A DNA stretch of 64,000 nt from Anaeromyces robustus (lineage: Eukaryota > Neocallimastigomycota > Neocallimastigomycetes > Neocallimastigales > Neocallimastigaceae). Below, piece after piece: positions 2,683 to 61,943 of this stretch (position 1 is its first letter; each line of letters starts with the position of its first letter). Both the position numbers and the translations under genes were made by a program. Location: the NCBI GenBank assembly GCA_002104895.1, contig MCFG01000005.1:371001-435000 (forward strand), written 5' to 3'. A model generated the notes under the pieces. That model saw nothing but the letters and a program-made list of their open reading frames with translations. It was not told where the DNA came from and ran no database searches.

Positions 2683-5600
2683 ATGGCTGAAAATATACAA
2701 AAACAAACACAATATCAATATACTGCTAATAGCAATCTTGTATTACAAGCAGATCGTTCATCTTTGCCACGTCGTAATCAAGAACCAAGTGGTGAACCAG
2801 AATCATTATGGGGAAAAATTAATCCAAAGGATTTTGGTGATAGGGCGCAAAGAACATTTAATGAAGAAAAAGAAAAAAGAGAAAAAAGAAAAAAGGAAAG
2901 AGAAGAAAAACGAAAACAAAAGGGATATAATTCATATGAAAGGCCTAAAAAAAAGAAGAAAGAAAGGTACAATTATTCAATATTTTTAATATTAATTCAT
3001 GAATTTTATTATTATCTGAATATTTCAAATTAGTTATTTTTATGATCAACTCTTCTAAAAGTTTTAATATCTTTATACAACAGATTATATATAAATATTT
3101 TATTTTTTTATTAATTAAATGTTTATAAATATAAGAATTTAAATAAAAATTTAAATATTTCAGTATAGATTAATTTAGATGTAGATATATAAATTTATAA
3201 ACATGAAATATTATATATTAATTTTTATATATATATTTTAATGTTAGTTTATTCCTAGGTCATGAAGATATTTTATCAGCTACAGATAATTTTGAGGGAT
3301 TATCATATCAACCTAAAACAAAAGAAACGCAACAAGCATATGAATTTTTATTATCATTTATTCAAAAGAATCTTGGAGATATTCAACAAGATGTATTAAG
3401 AGATGCTACAGATGAAGTAATTACAATATTGAAAGATATTAATTTAAAAGATTTTGATAAGAAAAAGTCGATAGAAGAAATAATAGGTGAATTATCATCA
3501 GATCAATTTGCACGATTAATTAATTTAGGTAAGCAAATTACAGATTATAATCAAGATCAAAATGAAAATATAAATGATGATGGTATGGCAAGAGATACTG
3601 CAATTGATGAAGAATATGGTGTTGCTGTAGTATTTGATGATGATGATGATTTACAAGATGATGAAGATGAAATTAGAGATGATGAATCAGATGATTCAGA
3701 AGAAGGTCAAGAAACTACAACAGATATGTTTTTAAAATCAGCAACGGGTGATAATGAATCAGAACAAGAAGGTGATGAAGAAGAAGATGATTTTACAACA
3801 GTTATTCATACAGAATCAAAAATTAATTTTGATGGCTCAGGTAATAAGGAACCAAAAGTAGTTCAACCACATGATATAGATGCTTTTTGGTTGCAAAGAA
3901 AGATATCAACTTATTATCATGATGCTCACGTTGCTCAAGAAAAAACATCAGCAACTTTTGATATTTTGTCTTCAGCTGCAAACCCACGTGATTGTGAAAA
4001 TGAATTGATGAATCTTTTTGATTATAATAATTTTGATTTAGTAAAGTTATTAACAAGAAATAGAGATATAATTGTATGGTGTACAAAACTTGCTCGTGCA
4101 ACACCTGTTGAACGAATTGGTATAGAAAAAGAAATGAATGAGAATGGAAAGGAATATATATTAAAACAATTAAGCGATGCTCCAACACAACAAATAAAGG
4201 AAAAGCATCGTAAAGGAGTGGTTGAAGATGCCATGGAATTAGATAAACCAAATAAACCTTTACCACCATCTGCTTCTGCAACTATTTCTTCAGGAGTAAA
4301 ATCAAAGAATAAATTATTAGCACCAAAGCAAAATATTGATATTGATTCTCTTATATTTACTCAAGGTAATCACTTAATGTCAAATAAAAAATGTAAACTT
4401 CCCAATGGTTCATTTAAGCGTTCTAAAGGAAATTATGAAGAAATTCATATTCCAGCACCAAAACCGAAAAAATTTGAAGACAATGAAAAATTAATTCCTA
4501 TATCAGAATTACCAGAATGGGCAAGACCAGGTTTTCCTAATGCTCAATCATTGAATAGAGTACAAAGTCGTGTTTATCCTACAGCTTTTTCAAGTGATGA
4601 AAATCTTTTACTTTGTGCTCCAACTGGTGCAGGTAAGACTAATGTTGCTATGTTAACTATTCTTAGAGAAATAAATAAAAATCGCAATCCAAAAACAGGT
4701 GAAATTAATATGGATGCCTTTAAGATTGTATATGTTGCTCCAATGAAAGCTTTAGTACAAGAAATGGTAGGAAATTTTTCAACTCGTTTAAAACATTTTA
4801 ATATTAAGGTAGCTGAATTAACAGGTGATCGACAACTCACTAAACAACAAATTACAGAGACACAAATTATAGTTACTACACCAGAAAAATGGGATATTAT
4901 TACTCGTAAAGGTTCTGATAAATCCTATACTAATTTAGTTCGTTTATTAATTATTGATGAAATTCATTTATTACATGATGATAGAGGTCCAGTATTGGAA
5001 AGTATTGTTAGTAGAACTTTAAGACAAATTGAACAAACTCAAGAATATGTTCGTCTTGTTGGTCTTAGTGCCACATTACCAAATTATGTTGATGTTGCAA
5101 CTTTCTTAAGAGTTGATCTTAAGACAGGTTTATTCTTTTTTGATAATAGCTACCGTCCATGTCCATTAAATCAACAATATATTGGTGTTTCTGAAAAGAA
5201 AGCAATAAAACGTTATCATTTAATGAATGAGATTACTTATGAAAAAGTCATGGAATCAGTTGGTAAAGAACAAATTTTAATTTTTACTCATTCCCGTAAG
5301 GAAACTGCTCGTACAGCCAAAATTATTCGTGATATGGCAATTGAAAAGGATACAATTGGTCAAATTTTAAAGAATGATTCAGCTAGTCAAGAAATTTTAC
5401 AAAGTGAATCAGCTACTGTGAAAAATGAAGATTTGAAAGATATACTTCCTTATGGTTTTGCAATTCACCATGCTGGAATGAGTCGTGCTGATCGTACTTT
5501 AGTTGAGGATCTTTTTACTGATGGTTACATTAAAGTTCTTGTTTCTACTGCTACTTTAGCTTGGGGTGTTAATTTACCTGCTCACACTGTTATTATTAAA

Positions 5601-8600
5601 GGAACGCAAATTTATTCACCAGAAAAAGGTAGTTGGGTTGAACTTTCTCCACAAGATATTCTTCAAATGTTAGGTCGTGCTGGTCGTCCACAATATGATG
5701 TAAATGGTGAAGGTATTATTATTACATCTCAAACTGAGTTACAATACTATCTGTCTTTACTTAATCAACAGTTACCAATTGAATCACAATTCATGAAACG
5801 CTTAGCAGATAATTTAAATGCTGAAGTTGTTTTAGGTACTATAAGAAACAGAGATGATGCTGTTCAGTGGCTTGGTTATACTTATTTATATGTTAGAATG
5901 CTTAGAAACCCAGCTTTATATGGTATTTCTCAGGAAGAATTAGAAGAAGATCCTTTCTTAGAACAAAAAAGAATTGATTTAATTCATAGTGCAGCAATTA
6001 TTTTGGATAAATGTAATTTAATTAAATATGATAAAAAACTTGGTAAGATTCAAGTTACTGAACTCGGTCGTATAGCTAGTCATTACTATATTTCTCATAA
6101 TTCAATGTCTATTTATAACCAACATTTAAAACCAATGATGAGTATTGTTGATTTATTTAGAGTATTTGCTTTATCTGATGAATTTAAATACATTCCAGTA
6201 AGAGAAGAAGAAAAATTAGAATTACAAAAATTACTTGAAAGAGTACCTATTCCAGTAAAGGAAAGTGTTGAAGAACCCACTGCAAAAACAAATGTACTTC
6301 TTCAAGCCTATATTTCTCAGTTAAAATTAGAAGGTTTTGCTTTAATGGCTGATATGGTTTATATTACTCAAAGTGCTGGTAGAATTTTAAGAGCTATTTT
6401 TGAAATTTGTCTTAAACGTGAATGGGCTCAATTATCAAGAAAAGCATTAGAACTTTGTAAAATGGTTAGTCATCGTATTTGGTTATCTATGAATCCATTA
6501 AGACAATTTAAAGATATTCCATATGATATTATAAAAAGATTAGAAAAGAAGGAATTTTCATGGGACAGATATTATGATTTAAATCCTCAAGAACTTGGTG
6601 AATTAGCACATCTTCCAAAAGCTGGTAAGTTAATTTACAAATATGTTCATCAATTCCCAAAATTAGAATTAGAAGCTCATGTTCAACCAATTACACGTTC
6701 TTTATTAAGAATTGAATTAACAATTACACCTGATTTCCAATTTGATTCAAAAGTTCACGAAGGTGGTGCTGAACCATTCTGGATTCTGGTTGAAGATGTA
6801 GATAGTGAACATATTCTATTCCAAGATATATTTATATTAAAAGAACAATATGCTGAAGAAGATCATACAATAACATTTACTGTTCCATTATTTGATCCAT
6901 TACCTCCAAACTATTTTATTAGTGTTATTAGTGATCGTTGGCTTCATTCTGAAACCAGACTTCCAGTTTCATTTAGACATCTTATTCTCCCAGAAAAATA
7001 TCCACCACATACAGATTTATTAGATCTTCAACCTTTGCCAGTTTCATCATTAAAAAATCCAGAATATGAAGCAATTTATAATAAAGATTTAAAATATTTT
7101 AATCCTATTCAAACCCAAGTGTTTAAAACTCTTTATAATACAGACGATAATGCCTTCATTGGCGCATCAGCTGGTAGTGGTAAAACAATTTGTGCAGAAT
7201 TTGCATTATTAAGATTATGGGCAATTAATCCAAAAGCAAGATGTGTTTATGTTGCACCATATGAAGAAATTATTGAACAAAAAGCACGTGAATGGAAAGC
7301 TAAAATGGGAAATTTATTAGGAGGTAAGAATATTGTTGTATTAACAGGAGAAACAGCAGCTGACTTGAAACTTTTAGAAAAAGGTGATATTATTTTTTCT
7401 ACTCCACAGAAATGGGATATGCTTTCTAGAAGATGGAAACAACGTCGTAACATTCAAACTATTGGCTTATTTATTATGGATGAAATTCATTTTATTGGTA
7501 GTGATATTGGTCCAATAATTGAAATTATTGTTTCAAGAATGCGTTATATTAGCGTTCAAACTGGTAATAAAATTCGTATAGTTACTTTAGGTGCTTCTTT
7601 AGCAAATGCTAGAGATCTTGGAGAATGGATTGGTGCAAATAGTCATTCTATTTACAATTTCCAACCTAACATAAGACCTGTTCCATTAGAAATATACATT
7701 CAAGGTTATTCTATTCCACACTTTGCTAGTTTAATGATTGCTATGACAAAACCAACTTATCTTGCTATTACATCTGGCGAAGATCAATCGGCTTTAATTT
7801 TTGTTCCAAGTCGTAAACAATGTTGTTTGACAGCTGTTGATTTATTAACTTTATGTACAGCAGATGGTAATGAATCTAAGTTCCTTCATTGTAAACCAGA
7901 AGAAATTGAACCATTCATTGAAAGAATATCTGATAAAACCTTAAAGGAAACAGTTTCAAGAGGTATTGGATTTTATCATGAAGCTCTTTCTAAATCGGAT
8001 AAACAAACTGTAGAGCATTTATTCCAAGCAGGAGCAATACAGGTTGTAGTTGCCAGTCGTGAAACATCATGGGAAATTGATATTCGTAGTAGTTTGGTTG
8101 TTATTATGGGTACTCAATATTTTGCTGGAAAAGAACATCGTTATGTTGATTATCCAGTCATTGATGTTTTACAGATGATGGGTCGTGCTTGTAAACCATC
8201 TAATAGTGAAAGTGGTCGCTGTTATTTAATGTGTCAAAGTGTTAAGAAAGATTTTTATAAGAAGTTCCTTTATGAAGCACTTCCTGTAGAAAGTCATTTA
8301 AATCATTTCCTTCATGATCATTTTAATGCTGAAATTGTTACAAAAACTATTGAAAATAAACAAGATGCTGTTGATTATTTAACTTGGACTTTCTTATATC
8401 GTCGTATGTCTCTTAATCCAAACTATTATGGACTTCAAGGTGTAACACATCGTCATATTAGTGATTATCTTTCTGAATTGGTTGAAAATACATTATTTGA
8501 TTTACAAAAAAGTAAATGTATTACAATTGAAGATGATATGGATATTAGTCCACTTAATTTAGGTATGGTTGCCGCATATTATTATATTAACTATGTTACT

Positions 8601-9680
8601 ATTGAAATGTTTAGTATGAGTTTATCAGAAAATACTAGATTTAAAGGTTTGATGGAAATTTTGAGTGCCGCTGCTGAATTTGAAGATATACCAATTCGTC
8701 ATAGAGAAGATACTGTAATTCGTCGTATTTATGAACACTGTCCAGTCAAATTCTCTAATGCAAATTTCCATGATTCTCACACAAAGACTAATATATTATT
8801 ACAAGCCCACTTCTCAAGACTTCAACTTCCACCTGATTTAGAATTTGATCAAAAACTTATACTTAATAAGATTATTCCATTAATTCAAGCTGCAGTAGAT
8901 GTCATTAGTAGTAATGGTTGGCTTACTACTGCTCTTAATTGTATGGAACTTTGTCAAATGTGTGTTCAAGCCGTTTGGAATCATGATTCACCGTTAAAAC
9001 AAATTCCATTCTTTACAAAAGATGTAATTAAACGTTGTGAAGATGCAGGTGCTGGTGAGAGTGTCTTTGATATTATGGAAATGGAGGATGATGTTCGTAC
9101 AAAATGTTTACAAATGAATAATAAACAATTAGCAGAAGTAGCTAAATATGTTAATAGATATCCAAATGTTGATTTAACCTTTGAAATAGTAGATAAAGAT
9201 GAAATTGTTGCAGGTGAACCTGTTACTCTTAAAATTTTATTAGAAAGAGATGAAGATGATGAAGAAGAAAGTGAAGAAGAAAGTGAAGGAGAAGATAAAA
9301 TGGATGTTGATAAAAAGAAATCAAAAGTTAAACCTGAAATTGGTCCAGTAATAGCTCCATATTATCCAGGTAAAAAAGATGAAGGATGGTGGATTGTTGT
9401 TGGTGATCCAAAAACTAAACAACTTGTAGCTATTAAAAGAACCACTTTACAATATCATGCATCTTTTAAATTAGAATTTATTGCACCAGAAGAACCAGGC
9501 AAATATAATTATACCCTTTATCTTTTATGTGATGCTTATATGGGTGATGACCAAGAATATCCAGTGAAGTTTAATGTACTTGAAGGTGAAGATGATGATA
9601 GTGAGGAAGAAGAAGAAGAAGAAGAAGAAGGAAAAGAAGAAGAAGAGGAAGAAGAAAGTGGTGATAATATGGAAGAATAA
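2683..9680 (+). CDS. BRR2: Brr2/SNRNP200 U5 snRNP ATP-dependent RNA helicase
   Basis: Ski2-like superfamily 2 helicase of the U5 snRNP that unwinds U4/U6 during spliceosome activation. Exon 1 (2683-2966) starts with a typical Brr2 N-terminus (YTANSNLVLQADRS); exon 2 runs to 9680, for about 2,238 residues, close to the usual 2,140-2,170. Two helicase-Sec63 cassettes are visible. The first has APTGAGKT (about residue 552), DEIH (665), SAT and QMLGRAGRP (901). The second keeps ASAGSGKT (1401) and DEIH (1506) but has a degenerate motif VI, QMMGRACKP (1737), and GASLAN instead of SAT, as expected for the regulatory cassette of this family. An acidic insert (nt 9250-9320) interrupts the last Ig-like domain, and a Glu-rich tail closes the protein. 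The phase-consistent acceptor of the single intron is TTAG at 3244-3247; the more canonical CTAG at 3255-3258 breaks the frame, so this border is uncertain. Identity is very sure. Confidence 0.96.
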
Positions 9681-23047: not shown

Positions 23048-24002
23048 TATGAGAAATTACCAAATTTATATAAACAGATTTTCTTAGTTAAAATTTATTC
23101 TTTATTTTATTTTAAATATTGTAATTATTATAGTTTAAACATGAAATTATAGAATGATAAAGTAGCTATTTTTTCGAGCTTATATACTTTTTCTTTTTTT
23201 CATGTTGTTAAGTTATTTATTTTAAATTTGATCTATTTATTTTGCTGAATTTTGAATATTTATTTTTAAATTGATTTACTCAATCATTACATGTATTAAA
23301 ACTCAAATTACCTTTTTCATATTTAAAATAATATTTAATAATTTTTATGACTTTAGACGTTAATTATAAATTAATATTTAATATTCATTGTTTTATTTTA
23401 TGTACTTTAAAAACTTTTATTTACTGGTTGAATTTATTTAAATTACATTACTTTAGATATACTTAGTTTTATAAAGTAAATTCAAATTACATATTTCTTT
23501 ATTTATTATATATAAATTTTTATTATTCATAATCGAACTTTATTCATTATATATATTGTAAAATGTTTATAACATATTTATAAAATAATTATAGCATATA
23601 TAAATATTAAATAAAATAATAAATATACAAAAATTCTATATTTATATGAATATATTACATATATACATAAACAATTTATTCATTATTGAATTTAAAATTT
23701 AACTATCATTTAATTTAATTATTGATAATTATAATTAAATTTCTTATCTTAAATTTATATTTACAATTAACTTTCTAAATTTTAAAATCTAAGTTGTATA
23801 TACTTTTTCTTAAATTAAAAATTTATATATATTTATAGCTTAACATTTAATTCAATTATTTTATAGTGGGTAGGAAAATTCTTAAGATTACGATATAACT
23901 ATATAATAAATATATATATATATATTATATATAATGACCATTTTATAGTATGAAATATTTTGACTTTTTTTGATTATTAAATAAAAGAATAAATAGTTAG
24001 AC
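23048..24002. other. Intergenic A/T-rich region, no gene seen
   Basis: About 950 bp upstream of the zinc-ribbon gene with no recognisable feature beyond A/T-rich sequence; it should include that gene's promoter. Confidence 0.6.
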
Positions 24003-24640
24003 TAATATATAGGTACCCATCTCCCATATGTATACTACAGGTGCACCTGTAGGCGTAAAGATTCGACGTTGCTGCTCCACCTATGTCGTTACGTTGAGAC
24101 TTAATGATAAGGTGTTCGGGGTTAATTTCCATAGTTTTCTTGGAAGCTATGTAAGTAGAGATTACAGAATCACGAAGAGTTAGAGCTTTCATGATATGTT
24201 CTATGTTATCAACCAATAACTAAGACACATGAAGAGTTAACAATACGATTAAAAAAAACAATCTTTTCAATCTTGTCACCTAATTCTTACATAATTCTTC
24301 GAATCGAGTCTTTTCTTCTTCACATTTCTTCTTTTCATTTTCGTCTTCTTCTAATTCAAGACTTTCCTTGGTAACGTTTTGAAGAGTGTGACCATCGTAT
24401 TCCATAAATTGTTGGACTATATATTCATAAAAGGTATAAAACTTCGAGTCCTTTCTTCTTTAGAGCTTAAGGAATGGAGAGTTTTCGACGACGACCTTAG
24501 ATTCACTAGTAACGTAGTAAATATTCTTTTGCTTTTCTGGCATACATATGACGTTAGTCCTTAAGAGAAGTTATTTCTTCACTAGATTTAGTAGAGTAGA
24601 ACATAAGGAATTCAGAAAGCTTAGTACGGTTAGTACTGTC
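24003..24640 (-). pseudogene. HSP90: Decayed fragment of a cytosolic HSP90 gene
   Basis: On the minus strand this stretch reads as the C-terminal third of HSP90 across changing frames. In order I see [19 protein letters not shown] then SLKD (family: NRAKLAELLR...STKSGDE...SLKD), MPEKQKNIYYVTSES and VENSPFLK, then [11 protein letters not shown] and [17 protein letters not shown]. These are followed by GDKIEKIVFFNRIVNSSCVL and [20 protein letters not shown] with [11 protein letters not shown]. Stops and frameshifts interrupt it after SLKD, after SPFLKL, after FEELCKN and after the CVLVIG segment, where the conserved EYGW block is lost. Homology is clear for 24088-24640; the part to 24003 is higher in G+C but unrecognisable. 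The rest of HSP90 (ATPase and most of the middle domain) is absent, so it is a partial dead copy. G+C is well above that of surrounding DNA. Confidence 0.88.
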
Positions 24641-24922: not shown

Positions 24923-27900
24923 TTAACAATTTAAACTATATGTATCAAATCGCATTTGAAAATGAGTATTTCTTTTCTTTTCACGACGTTTCATTTTCAT
25001 GGCAATAATTTTATTACGTCTGTGTATTATTTTAAATTTTGTTATAAATATACTAAAAACGACTGTAATTGAATATATTATTGGTCCGATTGTATAAAAA
25101 TAATCCTTTATTGTAACTGGAATATTTATAAAATTAAATATTAATAATATGATTTCTATAAATGTATATATATAGATGGGTATTGTCATTGGCTTTAATT
25201 ATTTAAAGAAAATTAATATAATGACATAATAAAAAAAAGCAATAAAAAATATTTAAAAAATACTTACGCATTATATATTCTTAATGTTTTGACTAAAACA
25301 CTACCAAAAATAAATGAAAATCCCTATGGATATAATTCATATATATAAAAAAATTGTTAATAATATTATATAATAAATATTTAAATTTATTATAAAAAAA
25401 AAAAAAAGATAAAGTACAATTCTTTTTAAAACATCAATTATTAAACATATTATTTTGCTTTTTTTCAAAGTTGATAATGAAGCAAATATATAATTAATTA
25501 TTGTTCCAATTAATATTATAACTAAAAAATATTTCCCACCTATAAAATAGAAACGTAAAAAAATAATATAATAAAATATAATATATTGAAAATTAATTAA
25601 TTATTTATAATATATATAACTTTATTTACATAATATTCTTTTATTATTATTATTATTATTATTATTACCCTTTCTGATAATATCATCATTTTTTAACAAA
25701 ACAATTATTAACAATAAAACCAGGGATATAGTTATTAAAATAATGGATATTTAAATGTTGATATATTAAATATTTTATTATTTTCTAATTGATAATATTC
25801 ATTGCAGTATTTTCCTGTATAATGTGGTGAAGTACAATTACATATATTATCATTTATACATATTCCTTTATTGCAAGAATAATCACATATTGGTTTATAA
25901 CTATATATATATATAATTAAAAATTAAAATAAAAAATATAACATTATTTTTTCATTTCTTTCCTTCTTATTTATTATTTATTATATTATTTACCATGATT
26001 TAAAATTTTGTTTTTCTTTATATTTATATATATATAAATTACTAGCATCGTTATTATCAGTTTTACATTCATCGATAGTAATATTAATATTATAAGTGTT
26101 ATTTTTAAAATATTTAAATTTTCCTAATAAAAATACAATAATAATAATAATATATATATATATATATTTAATAAATGGAAAGTATTTAATAAAAATTTTA
26201 AACAATTAATTACCAAATTGATTAACTTTAAAATAAATAATATATTTTCCAGGATTTCCAATAACTATATATTTTTTATAAAATAGTAATATAATTGAAT
26301 GATAATTATATTAATAATTGAATTTAGATTAATTCTATTAATTCTATTATTTATATTATTTATACTACTTTTTTATTTATTTATTTATTTATTATCATTA
26401 AAATAAAAAAAATACATATATATTTTGAAAATCTTCGAGTATACATTTTGTATTCCAGCAGTAATTTAAAGTTTCTCCTAAAATTTCTGCATTATAGGTA
26501 TCATTCACTTCTAATGTATAGAATATAATATTTTCAATTTTTATTTCATTAGAATCTGAACCTAAATTTATTACTTTGAAAAAAAAAAAGGATCATAATA
26601 TATTAACTAATTTTTGCTATGTTATATATGTCATAAATATATATATATATATATAAGATGTAATATAGTTATATACTTACAATGATCGTAGTCATCATAT
26701 AAATTAACTATATATTGTTTTTTATTTTTAAAAAAATAGTAATGATAATTAATATTTATATATTTATTTATTTTAAGTACACCAAGAAAATTTTTAATAT
26801 TTAAATAAATAATATATTTACATATTATATTCTCTTTTATATGATTTCCTGATAATATATGAAAATCATTTGTAATATTTGTTAATAATTTAATTTTTTG
26901 AGGATTTGTAGCAAATATATCTTTTCCATATTTATTTAATAATTCATTTTTGTTTGAAATGAAAGGTTCAGATTCTTCATCAAGAGAATAACATATATTA
27001 CCAATATCTTTTTAGATTTATAATTTAAAAAAAAAAAAAAGATATTAAATAATTAAAAATTATAATCGTTTAAAAATATATAAAATTTATATATATATAT
27101 ATAATTTATCATATATAATATTTATAATTATTTTACTTGAAAGTGCTTTATTATTTATAAAAGTACAATTATAAAATTTTACATATTGATTCATATTTAA
27201 ACAAAATGTATATATAACACCTCCATAATTTAAAGCCTTATTATCTTTAAATATTGAATCGGAAATAGCTATACCATGATTAATAGGTGTATAATTATTT
27301 ATATGAAAAACAACTCCATTATGTGATGTATTATTTTCAAATGATGATTTTTCAATTATTATATCAACATTATTAATGTTTTTTTCAGAATCAATATAAA
27401 TAAAACTATTTTCAAAATAACTATTGATAATCTTAACATTGTTTAAATTTATTATTGATTTTTCTTTAGTTCTAAAACCTTCATCTTATGAATGTAATAA
27501 TCATTATAAAGTAAAAACATTATATTATCATTTATTATTATTATTATTATTATTATTATCACTATTTTTATTATTATTGTATAAATAATTTCTATAATTT
27601 ATTTTATATATAATTCATATATATTTACATCCTATAAAATTTGAAATAGTTGTATCTGTAATATTATATATAGAACAACCCACAAAAATAAAAGAATCTA
27701 GATTTTCTTTGAAATCCAAACAGTTAATTCCATTAAAATTTTTACAGTTTCGAATATTACTAAACTATTTTTATTCAAAAAAAAATTAAAATCAAAAAGA
27801 AAAAATATTTATATATATCTTAATATAAATACTAATTATATATACTACGGCTTACATTTGATTTAATAATATTTAATTCTCCATTTGAATTAACAAAAGC

Positions 27901-28880
27901 TAAATATTTGTTTTTGTATAAATTTATAATATCAAATTAAAAAAATATGAATAAATAATATTAATTATTTTATAAACGTTTTATTAATTGCTCTATATAC
28001 CTCCAATATAGTTTATATTTTTTATTGTTACTAAAAATAAACTTATTAAACCTAATATTATTTAATAATATTATCAATTAATGATATAATTATTATTACA
28101 AAAGTATTTGTTTATATTAATTAAATACCTAAATCAGTTTTAAATAATCCATTAGTATTATTAATATTGATATCTTCTAGACTTACATGAACAAAACTAG
28201 TTTTTAAATTGTTTATTCCATATATTAATCTAAAAGAATTTATATATATTAATTATTAATATAAAATATGAAAGAATATTAAATTTAAAAATATTTTTAC
28301 CCTGAATATTTTCCAGTATAGTTTGCAATATTTGTACTTATTTTTTTTTTAAATGTTAATATTTATATTATATTAATTATTAATTATTTATATACAATTA
28401 ATTTTATTTGCTATACATGGTTTATTTTTTATATACTTTTCTATATGAAAAAGACCACTATCTTGCCAAGTTAAAAGTGATGAAATAGTATTATCTAACT
28501 GATGTATATTAATAATTTCTGAATTATTAACTTTAATAGATGGACCATCAACATTTGGATATATAGAATGAATTAATGTTCCTTCTGAATGGTAAACTGT
28601 AATAATATTTAACTTTGAATTACTTTTATATAAATAAATATATATAATAAATAATTCATTATATAAATAAAGATGATAATGAATTTTTTAACAAAAAGCT
28701 TCTCTCTTTCTCTATATATATATATATTTAAATTCTTATTATTTACTTAATAATTAGATCAATATCTCCTTCCGTACTAAAGAGGGAACATGAAGCATTC
28801 TTACCACACTTTATTTTGTTAACATTTATATTATCTATTTCAAAACTAGTTTTACCTTTTAAACTATTATTAATTATTTT

Positions 28881-28923
<43 letters not shown>

Positions 28924-30277
28924 ATGTTAATATATTATAATAAATAAATAATTTCTTTATTTTTATATAATAGCATACTAAGCTAATAAACCCAAATTTT
29001 TTGTAGATATTGGTAAATTTATATTACTAATTTTGGAATTTTTTAAATATAATCTAGTTGTCAAATATAAATTATAATTTACAACACTAAAAATTCCACC
29101 CTATTTAAATAATTTTAAAAAAAATTTTTTTAATTATTTTTATATAATTTATTTCACGTTTTTTTGTGTTTTGTTGTGTGATAATATTGTAAGTATAATG
29201 TATTTATATAATATTAAAATTTATTTTTAAATATATAATTATTATATAATATATATAATATATATACTTTATATAGAGAAGTAGAATTAAGAAATTGAAG
29301 ATTTGAACCATCTAAAATAAAATTCTCATACAAATATATTATTCCAGTATTATATGAGAAGTTATCCAAAAAATTACAATCCTTAATATACAAAAATGAT
29401 AAACCAGCATTTAACACTGAGCTTTTTATTTTATTTTTTTTTTTAATAAGTACCACATAATTTAAAATATCTTTTCATTAATTTTACTATATATAGATTA
29501 ATATTATTAAAAAAGTTTTTTATTAAGATATGCTAACCCATTATGTAAAGATAATCCTTTTATAAAATCAGTCTTATCAAAATACCCAATTGTAAAATAA
29601 GCTTTAATAATTCCACAAGTATATTCTCCTGAAAAATATGAATTTTCAATTTTTAAATTTGATAAATATTGATAGTCATATAAATATGGTAAACTAATTA
29701 TATACTCAGATATAGATTTACTTCCATAAAAAGTTGAATTTCTAATAGTATAATTCCCAAAAGATTCGTAATCTGGTATAATTGAAATTCCATTATATGA
29801 AATTCTTTCTTGAGTATTTTGATATTTGAAATTTTCTAATATCATATTACTTTGATCTTTAAATTTATTTTCGATTATTCCATTGAAATCAACATTGGAT
29901 ATTGTAATTCTAAAACAATTATTAAAATGTAGATTTCCAATATATTTTAAATTATAAATTTCAATAGTATTATAATTATTAAAATTTAAGCCATGAGTCT
30001 CATTTTCAAATTTAAGTTCAATATTTTTTTTCAATCCTGATATTTTTATATTATAATTCAATTCAGAATTTAATATATAATCATCTTTTATAATAAGTGA
30101 TGATGTTAAAATTATACTAGTATTATTATATTTTAGAGCATTTTTAAGTTCATTTTCATTTGAAACTTGAATGTTTTTAAGATATGTTATTTTTGAAAAA
30201 AGTAAAATAAAAAATAAATAAGGTATTAATGAAAAATTTTTATGAATGTAATTAATACAATAATTTATTATTTTCAT
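24923..30277 (-). CDS. Receptor-like protein: signal peptide, parallel beta-helix, EGF-like, class C 7TM (3' part probably damaged)
   Basis: A many-exon gene. Exons 29538-30277, 29268-29421, 28979-29100, 28747-28863, 28437-28622, 28301-28336, 28129-28229, 28001-28030, 27856-27899, 27629-27764, 27137-27484, 26681-27007 and 26416-26573 all close in phase (833 residues). They encode a signal peptide and right-handed beta-helix-type repeats of short Asn-rich strands (as in KIENSYFSGEYTCGIIKAYF), as in pectin-lyase-fold proteins. Then come 26214-26264 and 25994-26123, and 25669-25900 with an EGF-like module (CDYSCNKGICINDNICNC, then GKYC). Exons 25418-25539 and 25268-25323 carry GKYFLVIILIGTIINYI and GFSFIFGSVLVKTLRIYN, typical of class C GPCR helices; 24923-25192 holds two last helices. 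Such receptors are known from gut fungi, where sugar sensing has been suggested. Exons 13/14, the EGF-TM1 linker and the last junction do not close in phase, and helices 4-5 seem missing, so it may be a pseudogene. Confidence 0.72.
28889..28925. repeat. (AAAT)n microsatellite in receptor intron
   Basis: About nine copies of a TAAA tetramer inside the intron between the exons ending at 28979 and starting at 28863. Confidence 0.8.
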
Positions 30278-36616: not shown

Positions 36617-41599
<4,983 letters not shown>

Positions 41600-50573: not shown

Positions 50574-53228
50574 TTATTTTTGTAAACCATCATTTGCACA
50601 GTTGTTCTCTGATGACCAATTTTCAATATTTTCAATTTTATATTCAGAAGTAACTAAATTAACACTTGGTTCATATTGAGATTTAGAATTAATTTGTTCA
50701 ATAATTTCATCAGATGAAATACTGCTTTTATTAGAAGAGTTATTGCTATTGTTATTATTATTTTGATATTTAGTAATATAATCATCTTCTTTGAAAATAA
50801 CTGATAGTATTTTGATAATAAAGGTTAAAAATAAATTTACGATTGTAAAAAAATATATTGGAAATAATTTCAGTAATAGTTGAGTATGGATATTATTTAC
50901 ATTAAGAAAATGTACTATGATTATCATAATAAAACCAATTAAATCTGTATAAATTAAATTTGCTAATTCCTTAATATGTATATAACGATATTTAACATTC
51001 CATTCTATAAATAATAGTATTAAAATAATTACCAAAACTATAAATTTATTAGCTGCTATTATCCATAATATTATTTTTCCAATATTCATATTGATTTTAC
51101 ATACTTGAAAATTTAGTCCATTTTCTACATATACTGTTACTGGTGTATATGATGAAATAAATTGGAAACCAAAAAATATTCCATCAACAACAAAAAATAA
51201 AAATACTAATGTTGTAAAATTTTTTTTTACAAACTGTGAAAAATTATTTCTTTTAGGAATAATAATAATTAATTTTAAAAAGATTGGAATCATACAAAAA
51301 GTATAACCCGTTTGAGTAATAAATTCTTGTAAATGACATTTAAAATCCGTAACTTTTCCAATTTCAGTATACCCATAACTAAACAATATTATAATTCCTA
51401 ATGAATAAAAAAACCATTGATAAGATTCAAGCAAATTAAAATGTTGTTTATATCTTTCATCCCCAACAAGTAATGTTGATACAACAGTACTTGCTATACC
51501 TATAGTTGATATTAATATAACAGTTAAACCAAAAACTGAATTTAATTCTATATAGTTTATTTTTGTTATATTTTCTAATTTTTGTAAAGTATTTTCTGAA
51601 GTTTCATTTCCATATATGAAATTGAAAAATATTTTTCTAAATTTTCTAGAATAAGAAATATAATCATTTGGAGATAAAGAATTTCTTAAAACATAATGAA
51701 CGTCTCTAAAATTTTCACAATCAGTTATATTTAAATTACAAAACTCTTCATCATCATATAAACTTAAAATAGCTGTATGTCTACTATGATAATATGCATA
51801 CTTTTTTTGCATTTCTTTTGTTGTCATGAATTTCAAAACAATAGATGCAGCTTTTTTTTGACTTTCTGATATATAATTATTTATTCCAATATTATATCCT
51901 TCTAAACAAGTTGATGAAAATTTAGATCTTCTAGCAGGTAATTTTGATACTATATAATTATCACTATAAAATATAGGAGAATCCCAAAAAGTTATAAATA
52001 ATGCACCACCATTTTTAATATAATTTATAACTTCATTATCTTTTAATTGATATAGTTCATCTATTTATAATAATGTATATATTATCAAATTTATTGTATT
52101 GAAAAAAATTAAAATTAAAAATAAAATAATAAATATAACAATACAACTACCAATTTAAACATATTATTTTATATTTTTACTTACCTGTTGATGATGTTTT
52201 TTCTTTAACTTCTTTTAATTTATTAAAACCATCTATAGCGTTTTGGCTTATATATCCAGGAAATTCAGAATTTATGTCATCTCTATAAGAATCTATAAAT
52301 TCTAGTGCACTGCAGAGTGATGATTCACTATCTTGAGACATATTAATAAAAAATATAAGAAAAAAATTAATACTGTAAATATAACTTTTATGAATATCAT
52401 TAATAATAATTTATTTATATACCAGGGATATGTCCTAAAAAACCATTTATGGTTCTTCCAAAATAATTTTCTCTTTGTCTTATATAATTTTCAAAAAATA
52501 TTAATTCTTCCCATGTTTCCGGAGGTGAATAATTATATTTTTTTAATAAGTATTTATTTGAATACAATACATTATATTTAATATCAATAGGCTTATTTAT
52601 AATTTTATATAGGTTATTATTAGTACAATGATATATTATATCTATATTATATACATTTATAAATTAACAGATAATATGTTAGTATTACCAATCCTACGAC
52701 TTTATCGTTAATTATACTTATATTCGATGCTATGCCTGGAATATATAAACTTAAATGTTCATCATCTAACAAAGTTCTCAAATCAACAAGATAATCTGCA
52801 TATTGTGAAGAATATATAGAATTATAAATAATGATGTCATATTTATGTGATTTTTTTTTAAATAATGAGTCAAGTAATGAACCATAATCGTCAATATTTG
52901 TTGTACTATTCTTGAATCCATTTATTGTTACCATATTAACATTAATATTTAAGTCATTTTCTTTTGAAAATAAATTAAAATCATTTACTAGATGATGATA
53001 AAAAGAATCCGATGAATCATATATGAAAGATATAAAATTAATCGTTATAGCTTGTGTTATAATTACTGGATAAATTTAAAAACAAAAAAAAAAAAAAATA
53101 AAAAAAAAAATATTTAGAATTTTTGATTGAATATAAAGGTTTAAATAAAAAAATAACATAATATAAAAAATTTGGGACATATATTTACTATATTTTATAA
53201 AAAATAAAAAATATATTCTTTTAATCAT
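50574..53228 (-). CDS. Class C (GABA-B-like) 7TM receptor with solute-binding-protein ectodomain
   Basis: Five exons (53189-53228, 52689-53065, 52423-52591, 52185-52331, 50574-52060) close in phase to 740 codons. Residues 1-19 form a signal peptide. Residues ~20-390 resemble a bacterial type 1 extracellular solute-binding protein: AITINFISFIYDSSDSFYHH, VNMVTINGFKNSTTNIDDYG, YDIIIYNSIYSSQYADYLVD, DKVVGLPIDIKYNVLYSN, PETWEEL, LCSALEFIDSYRDDINSEFP, GGALFITFWDSP. Seven transmembrane helices follow at about 415-665, beginning FGLTVILISTIGIASTVVST and including YTEIGKVTDFKCHLQEFITQ with the Cys expected in class C receptors. The tail is Ser/Asn-rich. This SBP-7TM architecture is known from anaerobic gut fungi, where sugar or oligosaccharide sensing has been proposed. 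G-protein coupling is inference. All splice sites are canonical and the frame is intact. Confidence 0.88.
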
Positions 53229-60410: not shown

Positions 60411-61943
60411 AAACAATATTATTTTTCATTTTTTATATATGGTTTATTATTTTAATATTAAAAAAAAAAATTTTTTTTTTAATACAGTCAATAATTTTGA
60501 ATCTTTTCTTTTCCATATACATATATCATATATCAGTTTTTAAATAATTATTATAATAGAAACGTTTATTTTACATATATGAATGTTATTTATAAATTTA
60601 GCAATAATGATATTATTAACAAGATATCTTTATAGTTAAATAATCAATTTAATAATCTAAACTATAATAATTCAAATATAAAAATAAAATAGAATAATAA
60701 AAGTAATAACAGTATTAAAGCAAAATAATTAAAAAAGAAATAAGATAAAAAAATTTTTTTATTTTAAAATACAATTTTAATAAATTTCCAAAATAAAAAT
60801 AACAATAACCATCAAAAGTAAACATATTATTAACTAAATATTAACGAGAAAAAATATATATATATATATATGATATAATAATATACTATTTAATGTTAAT
60901 TATAAAAATAACAAGAATTTAATATCGATTTTACAATTATTAATAGTATAATATTATAAATATTTATAATATACACAAATATATATATATTTAAAAACAA
61001 ATAATATAATATATTATTTATTTATAAAATAAAATATATGTATACAAATATACAACATATACAATATAAATAAATAATAGTAATAGAATAAATAAAATAA
61101 AATATAAAATAAAATAAAATAAAATAAAATAAAAATAAAAAAAAAAAAAAAAAAAAATAAAACAAAATAAAAATAAAATAAAAATAAAATAAAAATAAAA
61201 TAACAATAAAATAACAATGAAATAAAAATACAATATAAATAAGATAAAATAAACATAAAAATAAAATAAAATAAATAAAATAAAATATAAAATAATATTA
61301 TAATTAAAATATAATCAAATAATAGTATATAAAAAAAATATAATATATTTATTGTTATATTATTTTTATCGTTAACATAATTATATCTTTTAGTAATAAT
61401 AATATTATTATTATTTATTATATAATTAATCAATATTAGTGTTATGTTTTTTTTTTTTTTTTTTTTTTTATGTTGCTTTTTATTATAATATTTTAATTAT
61501 TTTACTATATATTATTAGTTTTATATAATTATTATATAATCATAATTTTAATAATAATATTATATTTAAATAAACATCAATTTCTCGATTAATTTTATAA
61601 TTAAATTCTATAAAATAAAAAATTTAAATAATTCAAATATAATTAATAAAAATAAACATATTTAAAAATTAATACATGGCTCATTATGGGCCAAAACTTA
61701 AAATGGATTTATTATTTAATTTAAAAAATTTTTTTTAATTTATTATATTTATTGTATATGAATTAATTAAAAATTATAAAAATAACTGAATTTATATGAA
61801 TCTTTTATGTAAATAGATTTATATATATATATATTTTTTTTATATCTTTTATATCTTTTTTTTATGAGTATACATTTAATTGATTATTATAAAATTAAAT
61901 TATTTAAAAAATAATATTATATATCATATATAGTATAAATAAA
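60411..61943. other. Intergenic A/T-rich region
   Basis: About 1.5 kb with AAAAT and AAAATA arrays (61095-61290), a T run (61448-61469) and no recognisable gene. It must include the kinesin promoter. Confidence 0.65.

Follow-up and report, generated by a model that had tools for sequence, protein, structure and literature searches.

Whether a gene whose exons can be joined into a convincing receptor still encodes one is the question raised by a 64,000-nucleotide (nt) stretch of the genome of the fungus Anaeromyces robustus (GenBank assembly GCA_002104895.1, contig MCFG01000005.1, positions 371,001 to 435,000). This stretch, bases 371001-435000 of the contig here called C445, is referred to as the window, and the gene in question occupies 30277..24923 on its minus strand. 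In the initial annotation, made from the letters alone, hand-joined exons were read as a signal peptide, a beta-helix-like ectodomain, an EGF-like module and a class C seven-transmembrane (7TM) core. This architecture is right for the gene family, as a complete model of the paralog L018 illustrates, and wrong for the window copy. As assembled, the window copy cannot encode a 7TM receptor, because a frameshift between the EGF-like module and the first transmembrane helix (TM1) terminates the protein short of the membrane and no exons remain for TM4 and TM5. This member of a known receptor family was probably inactivated recently, by lesions that would be real in the organism.

The assembly comprises 70.2 Mb in 769 contigs. 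At least 150 matches to CBM_10, the fungal dockerin, were found in it (best 150 of 683 candidates scored) and 0 in 14 control genomes, which, together with the extreme A+T content, fits an anaerobic gut fungus. The coordinates first given for the gene proved exact, with a minus-strand ATG at 30277 and a last stop ending at 24923. Gene models were made with a splice-aware gene finder trained on open frames from the same genome, and the window was compared with paralogs found via exon 1. Relatives of exon 1 occur at 5 other places in the genome, and at more in further searches, with the phase of the exon conserved. Exons 1-13 (30277-26681), when joined, give 749 codons with 0 stops and conserved phases, compared with 70 and 118 stops in the remaining two frames and a mean of 76 (minimum 55) in 300 shuffles of the same letters. 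The exons have a GC content of 19.7% versus 9.2% for the introns. The exon order and phases recur in the paralogs, and therefore the joined exons are not a product of chance. The stop counts, the GC contrast and the conserved phases together rule out chance open frames for the ectodomain, and its coding status is solid.

The membrane part of the window copy is recognizable but incomplete. The TM2-TM3 exons match the Pfam model 7tm_3 with 34.4 bits (cut-off 33.5; model positions 44-98). Judged by this profile, they are genuine class C helices and the locus is descended from class C receptors. The class C motifs quoted at the outset do lie in real class C helices, but these are TM2 and TM3, not TM1. 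When TM2, TM3 and TM6/7 are joined, the score is 27.8 bits, below the cut-off. A profile match to 7tm_3 or to the pectin-lyase fold had been anticipated; the first was obtained for TM2-TM3 only, and no pectin-lyase family was matched. The complete 7TM core claimed for this copy is absent, since there is no exon for TM4 or for TM5, and the EGF-like module and TM1-like stretch are in different frames. Seven transmembrane helices were found in the paralogs and not in the window copy. Both cysteines of the pair linking TM3 and the second outer loop are invariant in 4 paralogs; the window copy keeps the cysteine on the TM3 side, and the exon with its partner is lost.

The intron-rich subfamily to which this copy belongs was found through exon-1, exon-11 and EGF/TM searches, and 18 other copies were examined. 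In four of these, L017 (20 exons) and L018, L019 and L021 (21 exons each), all introns are GT-AG and no internal stop is present over 1127-1221 codons including the stop. Their joined 7tm_3 matches reach 89-99 bits and span almost the entire model, for L018 with the whole protein and for L017, L019 and L021 with the part from EGF to TM7. The L018 model, with 1220 residues, begins with a hydrophobic N-terminus, continues through an Asn-rich ectodomain and an EGF-like module, and contains a full 7tm_3 domain (96.2 bits). Overall, clean members have about 1130-1220 residues, of which roughly 750-850 form the beta-helix-like ectodomain; the EGF-like stalk and then the class C 7TM core follow.

Against these relatives, three lesions stand out in the window copy, and family exon models were scored in the 18 other copies, the window and three unrelated control stretches. 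One lesion lies in the exon for the EGF-like module and TM1, which is 232 nt long (remainder 1 when divided by three) and thus one base off compared with six relatives (L017 227, L018 236, L019 236, L020 233, L021 233 and the copy on contig C390 233; all remainder 2). The EGF frame stops 22 residues past the last cysteine, ahead of a hydrophobic stretch that is open in another frame. The TM1 score of this stretch, 9, only equals the control maximum, so its assignment rests on position and hydrophobicity.

Another lesion is the loss of TM4 and TM5. Only 75 nt separate the end of the TM3 exon (25268) from the start of the TM6/7 exon (25192), too little for exons that occupy 646-913 nt in L017-L021 and C390. 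In the window, the TM4 model reaches 7 bits (control maximum 7) and the TM5 model 5 bits (control maximum 4), and these weak matches fall inside the TM1-like and TM2 stretches, that of TM5 within the TM2 exon. Paralog peptides were used to look for TM4 and TM5 exons concealed in introns or at other places in the window, and found nothing credible (best E 0.024, at 20.9 kb). As a control, these peptides recovered both exons in each of the five paralogs, although in L020 the match to TM4 was confined to its C-terminal part. The exons that flank the gap are also out of frame with each other: the TM3 exon leaves two bases over and the TM6/7 exon begins in phase 0, so splicing one to the other gives a stop after two codons. 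The remaining lesion concerns exon 14, which is 150 nt long in L018 and L019 and 153 nt in L017, L020 and L021. Its expected donor is AT in the window and GT in C390, L017, L018, L019, L020 and L021. Of the three lesions this is the softest, because an upstream GT in the exon, chosen as its end by the gene finder, could preserve the frame at a cost of seven residues. The coordinates of all exons are collected in Table 1.

Table 1. Exons of the receptor copy, the gap in its membrane part and two neighbouring features, as positions in the window.
Feature	Position	Strand	Observation
Exon 1	29538..30277	-	Start codon, hydrophobic N-terminus, first Asn-rich ectodomain part; 246 whole codons; open frame
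Exon 2	29421-29268	-	Beta-helix-like ectodomain
Exon 3	29100-28979	-	Beta-helix-like ectodomain
Exon 4	28863-28747	-	Beta-helix-like ectodomain
Exon 5	28622-28437	-	Beta-helix-like ectodomain
Exon 6	28336-28301	-	Beta-helix-like ectodomain
Exon 7	28229-28129	-	Beta-helix-like ectodomain
Exon 8	28051-28001	-	Beta-helix-like ectodomain
Exon 9	27899-27856	-	Beta-helix-like ectodomain
Exon 10	27764-27629	-	Beta-helix-like ectodomain
Exon 11	27484-27137	-	Beta-helix-like ectodomain; Chlam_PMP repeat (Pfam PF02415)
Exon 12	27007-26822	-	Beta-helix-like ectodomain
Exon 13	26707-26681	-	Beta-helix-like ectodomain
Exon 14	26424..26573	-	End set by L018/L019 length (150 nt); donor there AT, not GT
Exon 15	26264-26214	-	Juxtamembrane ectodomain; phase as in paralogs
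Exon 16	26123-25994	-	End of juxtamembrane ectodomain; phase as in paralogs
Exon 17	25669..25900	-	Six-cysteine EGF-like module, then TM1-like stretch in another frame; 232 nt
TM2 exon	25418..25539	-	Family exon model 22 bits, control maximum 8
TM3 exon	25268..25323	-	Family exon model 40 bits, control maximum 4
Gap replacing TM4+TM5 exons	25193..25267	-	75 nt versus 646-913 nt in relatives
TM6/TM7 exon and C-terminal tail to stop	24923..25192	-	tblastn of L018 TM6/7 E = 2e-4; 21 bits, control maximum 12
HSP90 gene relic, two pieces in separate frames	23980..24459	-	Pfam HSP90 40.8 and 31.8 bits, profile positions 321-367 and 403-442
Second class C receptor, one open frame	50577-52064	-	7tm_3 37.3 bits

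How unusual the window copy is can be seen from the exon-model survey. Two copies with runs of N, L034 (2500 N) and L038 (1501 N), were set aside, which left 16 gap-free copies; places on C475 and C394 with exon-1 or exon-11 matches were left out, and the C390 copy was surveyed as L032 and later as the longer stretch L046. TM4 is kept in all 16 and TM5 in 15, clearly above every control; in L036, TM5 reaches 5 bits away from its proper place. A single open frame covers the EGF-like module and TM1 in 14 of the 16, and TM1 exceeds the control maximum in 13 of these; L035 is counted among the 14 though its TM1 score of 8 is below the control maximum of 9. The five paralogs that supplied the models (four for TM4) sit among the 16 and score high by construction, and the other 11 are free of this bias. 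The 16 copies are also not fully independent, because L030 and L031 have similar scores and could represent a single copy that was duplicated. Equal scores were also obtained for two EGF/TM copies on opposite strands of contig C676, at 353 and 7572, and for C475:33042, which suggests, from the sequences, that one receptor copy was recently duplicated or inverted. The EGF/TM copy L036 (C137:101900-105200) is weak throughout.

The age of the lesions was approached through the closest copy among the candidates scored, that of C390, with 43% identity over exons 11-12. The C390 copy gives signals for all seven helices; it starts at the end of its contig and exon 1 is missing. Identity between the window and C390 is 33% in exon 2, 41% in exon 11, 47% in exon 12, 43% in exon 14 and 38% in exon 16 of the ectodomain, 49% in the EGF-like module, 47.5% in TM2, 82% in TM3 (17 residues) and 32% in TM6/7. 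The drift in TM2 and TM3 is no greater than in the ectodomain, which speaks for young lesions, and the greater drift in TM6/7 speaks for some relaxation. A near-identical second copy or allele was sought by DNA search and none was found (best 40 of 94 and 40 of 218 candidates scored). The joined TM exons of the window, searched against the genome, matched only the window itself.

Several observations weigh against inactivation. Searches with tblastn are not very sensitive here, as the TM2 of the window is reached by a paralog TM2 peptide only at E 0.26, and because of this the claim of missing exons rests mainly on the 75-nt gap and the exon-model survey. Exons 1-13 are free of any lesion, and therefore either the decay began only very recently or selection still acts on the ectodomain. 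The gene finder did trace a stop-free path of 21 exons through the window, but only with TM1 omitted, the EGF-like module shortened and the TM6/7 exon for the most part left out. The window copy is also not the sole odd one. L033 and L036 are without TM1 above the control maximum and L036 is without TM5, and copies such as L036 may be decaying or divergent too. The exon-1 frame of L017 has no ATG, leaving its start codon unassigned. L020 is likewise without an ATG at the exon-1 start used, and its TM4 exon is frameshifted and split over two frames (5752-5960 of its minus strand, contig C700). The frameshift in L020 could be assembly noise as much as family turnover, and this copy may be broken or misassembled. 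Finally, the evidence comes from a single assembly, in which both a one-base shift in A/T-rich DNA, a common sequencing error, and a collapsed stretch could be assembly errors.

On this last point, the gene could be an intact receptor that was damaged in assembly by a one-base error near TM1 and a collapse that lost TM4-TM5. The frameshift in a second copy, L020, favours this explanation, as does the finding that TM2 and TM3 are as similar to C390 as exons 11, 12 and 14, which indicates that this membrane part was constrained until recently. However, it requires three independent errors in one gene, including a splice-donor substitution, and the loss of about 0.6-0.8 kb without any N (the window contains 0 N). 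Four other copies were modelled without such faults, and the lower similarity of TM6/7 to C390 fits relaxed constraint, so assembly damage is an unlikely account. Alternatively, the locus might now yield a soluble secreted beta-helix and EGF protein, shed or acting as a decoy, with loss of the membrane half tolerated or selected. All lesions lie from exon 14 onward, exons 1-13 are clean over 749 codons, and the EGF frame spans six cysteines before its stop. This stop is upstream of several introns, however, which makes the RNA a candidate for nonsense-mediated decay, and the lost exon-14 donor harms the juxtamembrane ectodomain as well. In addition, a rough length argument puts the probability that three lesions would all fall in the last third by chance at about 5%, which is not very rare, and TM2-TM3 are undecayed relative to C390. 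A soluble product is accordingly improbable, and slightly more so is a full receptor-to-decoy conversion, in which this protein would compete with at least four clean membrane-bound paralogs for the same plant or microbial surface ligand; if true, it would be a conversion inside a rapidly turning-over fungal receptor family. That the ectodomain and TM exons belong to two separate transcripts is very improbable. Nothing was found in favour of this, and exon-by-exon evidence alone does not settle it within the window copy, but phase-compatible exons run from the ectodomain to TM7 as single models in four paralogs, and the EGF-like module and TM1 share an open frame in most of the gap-free copies surveyed. 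Recent inactivation of a family member is thus the preferred reading.

The fold of the ectodomain was assessed on several lines. The hydrophobic N-terminus looks like the signal peptide first proposed, as judged by eye only, and no Pfam family covers exon 1. In exon 11, a Chlam_PMP repeat (PF02415) scores 26.3 bits on the exact exon and 27 bits on a slightly longer stretch (cut-off 20.6); at the matching place in two paralogs, it scores 17.0 and 16.6 bits, under the cut-off. The likeness to chlamydial polymorphic membrane proteins is confined to this one repeat and carries no claim of shared descent or function. Rung-like motifs, by a self-defined pattern, number 16 in the window ectodomain compared with a mean of 4.1 and a maximum of 10 in shuffled sequences, and 8-12 in each of four paralogs compared with shuffled maxima of 6-9. 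Autocorrelation of hydrophobicity at lags 20-26 in the window ectodomain gave no significant periodicity, and periodicity was dropped as proof of a beta-helix. Pfam Beta_helix had no match in the window pieces or paralog sequences scanned. Exon 1 had no match in the Protein Data Bank (PDB) up to E = 5, the whole ectodomain had one chance-level match (E 0.65), and an NCBIfam scan over most of the L018 ectodomain gave chance-level rows only. An AlphaFold model of exon 1 alone had a predicted local distance difference test score (pLDDT) of 43.7, too low to use. The pectin-lyase-type ectodomain that was proposed therefore gains from the Chlam_PMP repeat and the excess of rung-like motifs and lacks a Beta_helix or pectin-lyase match that would show the fold directly; a beta-helix is likely, though not proven, on the sequence features. 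The EGF-like module fares similarly: its six-cysteine pattern, from 25900 on, is conserved in the paralogs, but Pfam EGF models stay under their cut-offs (17.7 of 37.5 in the window and 18.2 of 22.1 in L019).

In metazoan class C receptors, such as GPR158/GPR179 and the metabotropic glutamate, calcium-sensing and GABA-B receptors, the ectodomains are mostly Venus-flytrap or Cache domains. The 7TM profile of the paralogs matches solved metazoan structures, best GPR158 (E = 2.9e-14), and also mGlu4, mGlu1, CaSR and GABA-B, whereas the Asn-rich ectodomain here is without a useful PDB sequence match. No Pfam match to a Venus-flytrap (ANF) domain or a nine-cysteine domain was found in the window pieces scanned or in L018. 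In the available sections of the study by Seppala et al. 2016 (PMC5168858), published gut-fungal members likewise have neither domain, and their absence therefore does not exclude the gut-fungal subtype.

The same sections put the number of class C receptors in three gut fungi at approximately 100, with a pectin lyase fold in around 30% and EGF-like domains in a few, and already propose putative sugar binding. By this description, the combination of a pectin-lyase-like ectodomain, an EGF-like module and a class C 7TM core is already known, and it is the family architecture found here. Transcripts were retained in that set only with 7-9 predicted helices, whereas the window copy is without TM4-TM5. 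Related receptors in gut fungi were also noted in the initial annotation, and its suggestion of direct plant-polysaccharide sensing has a precedent in the sugar binding proposed there. Sections of a further study (PMC8665504) call the function of class C receptors unknown, report that on Avicel and xylan they are up-regulated when a methanogen partner is present, and suggest binding of sugar polymers or methanogen contact. An open-access literature search found no report of broken copies of such receptors. What is newly added here is the 20-21-exon anatomy of the intron-rich subfamily and the broken state of the window copy. Hand-joined exons can thus recover the true gene family and yet miss that one copy is broken.

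Intact members are most likely surface receptors. In such a receptor, the elongated beta-helix-like ectodomain would bind an extended ligand, possibly a plant glycan or the surface of a partner cell, the EGF stalk would transmit the change, and the class C 7TM core would presumably activate a G-alpha protein. G-alpha matches over the cut-off occur on eight contigs, including C445. Plant-polysaccharide sensing by the intact copies is a plausible hypothesis, and expression for ligand identification should use the clean paralogs L018, L019 and L021, as well as L017 if a start codon can be located for it.

This subfamily is easily overlooked. At least 127 exon-level 7tm_3 matches were found in the genome (best 150 of 187 candidates scored), and none of the 18 surveyed copies is among the 127 listed, because the 7TM core is spread over six exons and an exon-by-exon search misses it. 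Single-exon-type class C receptors of the same genome, such as the second receptor in the window, share 7tm_3 but have the core on one exon, with a solute-binding-like N-terminus (by eye and from the sections of PMC5168858) and no EGF module seen. Upstream of this receptor, the frame 52650-53075 has no Pfam match and looks solute-binding-like by eye. Very long open frames stand beside some 7tm_3 matches, at loci L001-L008 and L022-L026. Giant receptors with frames of 2000-3600 amino acids were considered and rejected, as every frame above 1600 codons in the loci examined contains a run of N read as X; a frame of 3606 amino acids was not among these.

The HSP90 relic adjoins the 3' end of the receptor copy and was counted in favour of its inactivation. 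Elsewhere in the window, a 2152-residue open frame at 3222-9680 on the plus strand resembles, by eye, a Brr2-type spliceosomal helicase. A poly-Asn run and a low-complexity Ile/Phe/Tyr frame lie at 39721-40206 and 61014-61496, and low-complexity tracts such as poly-Asn inflate stop-free frames in this genome.

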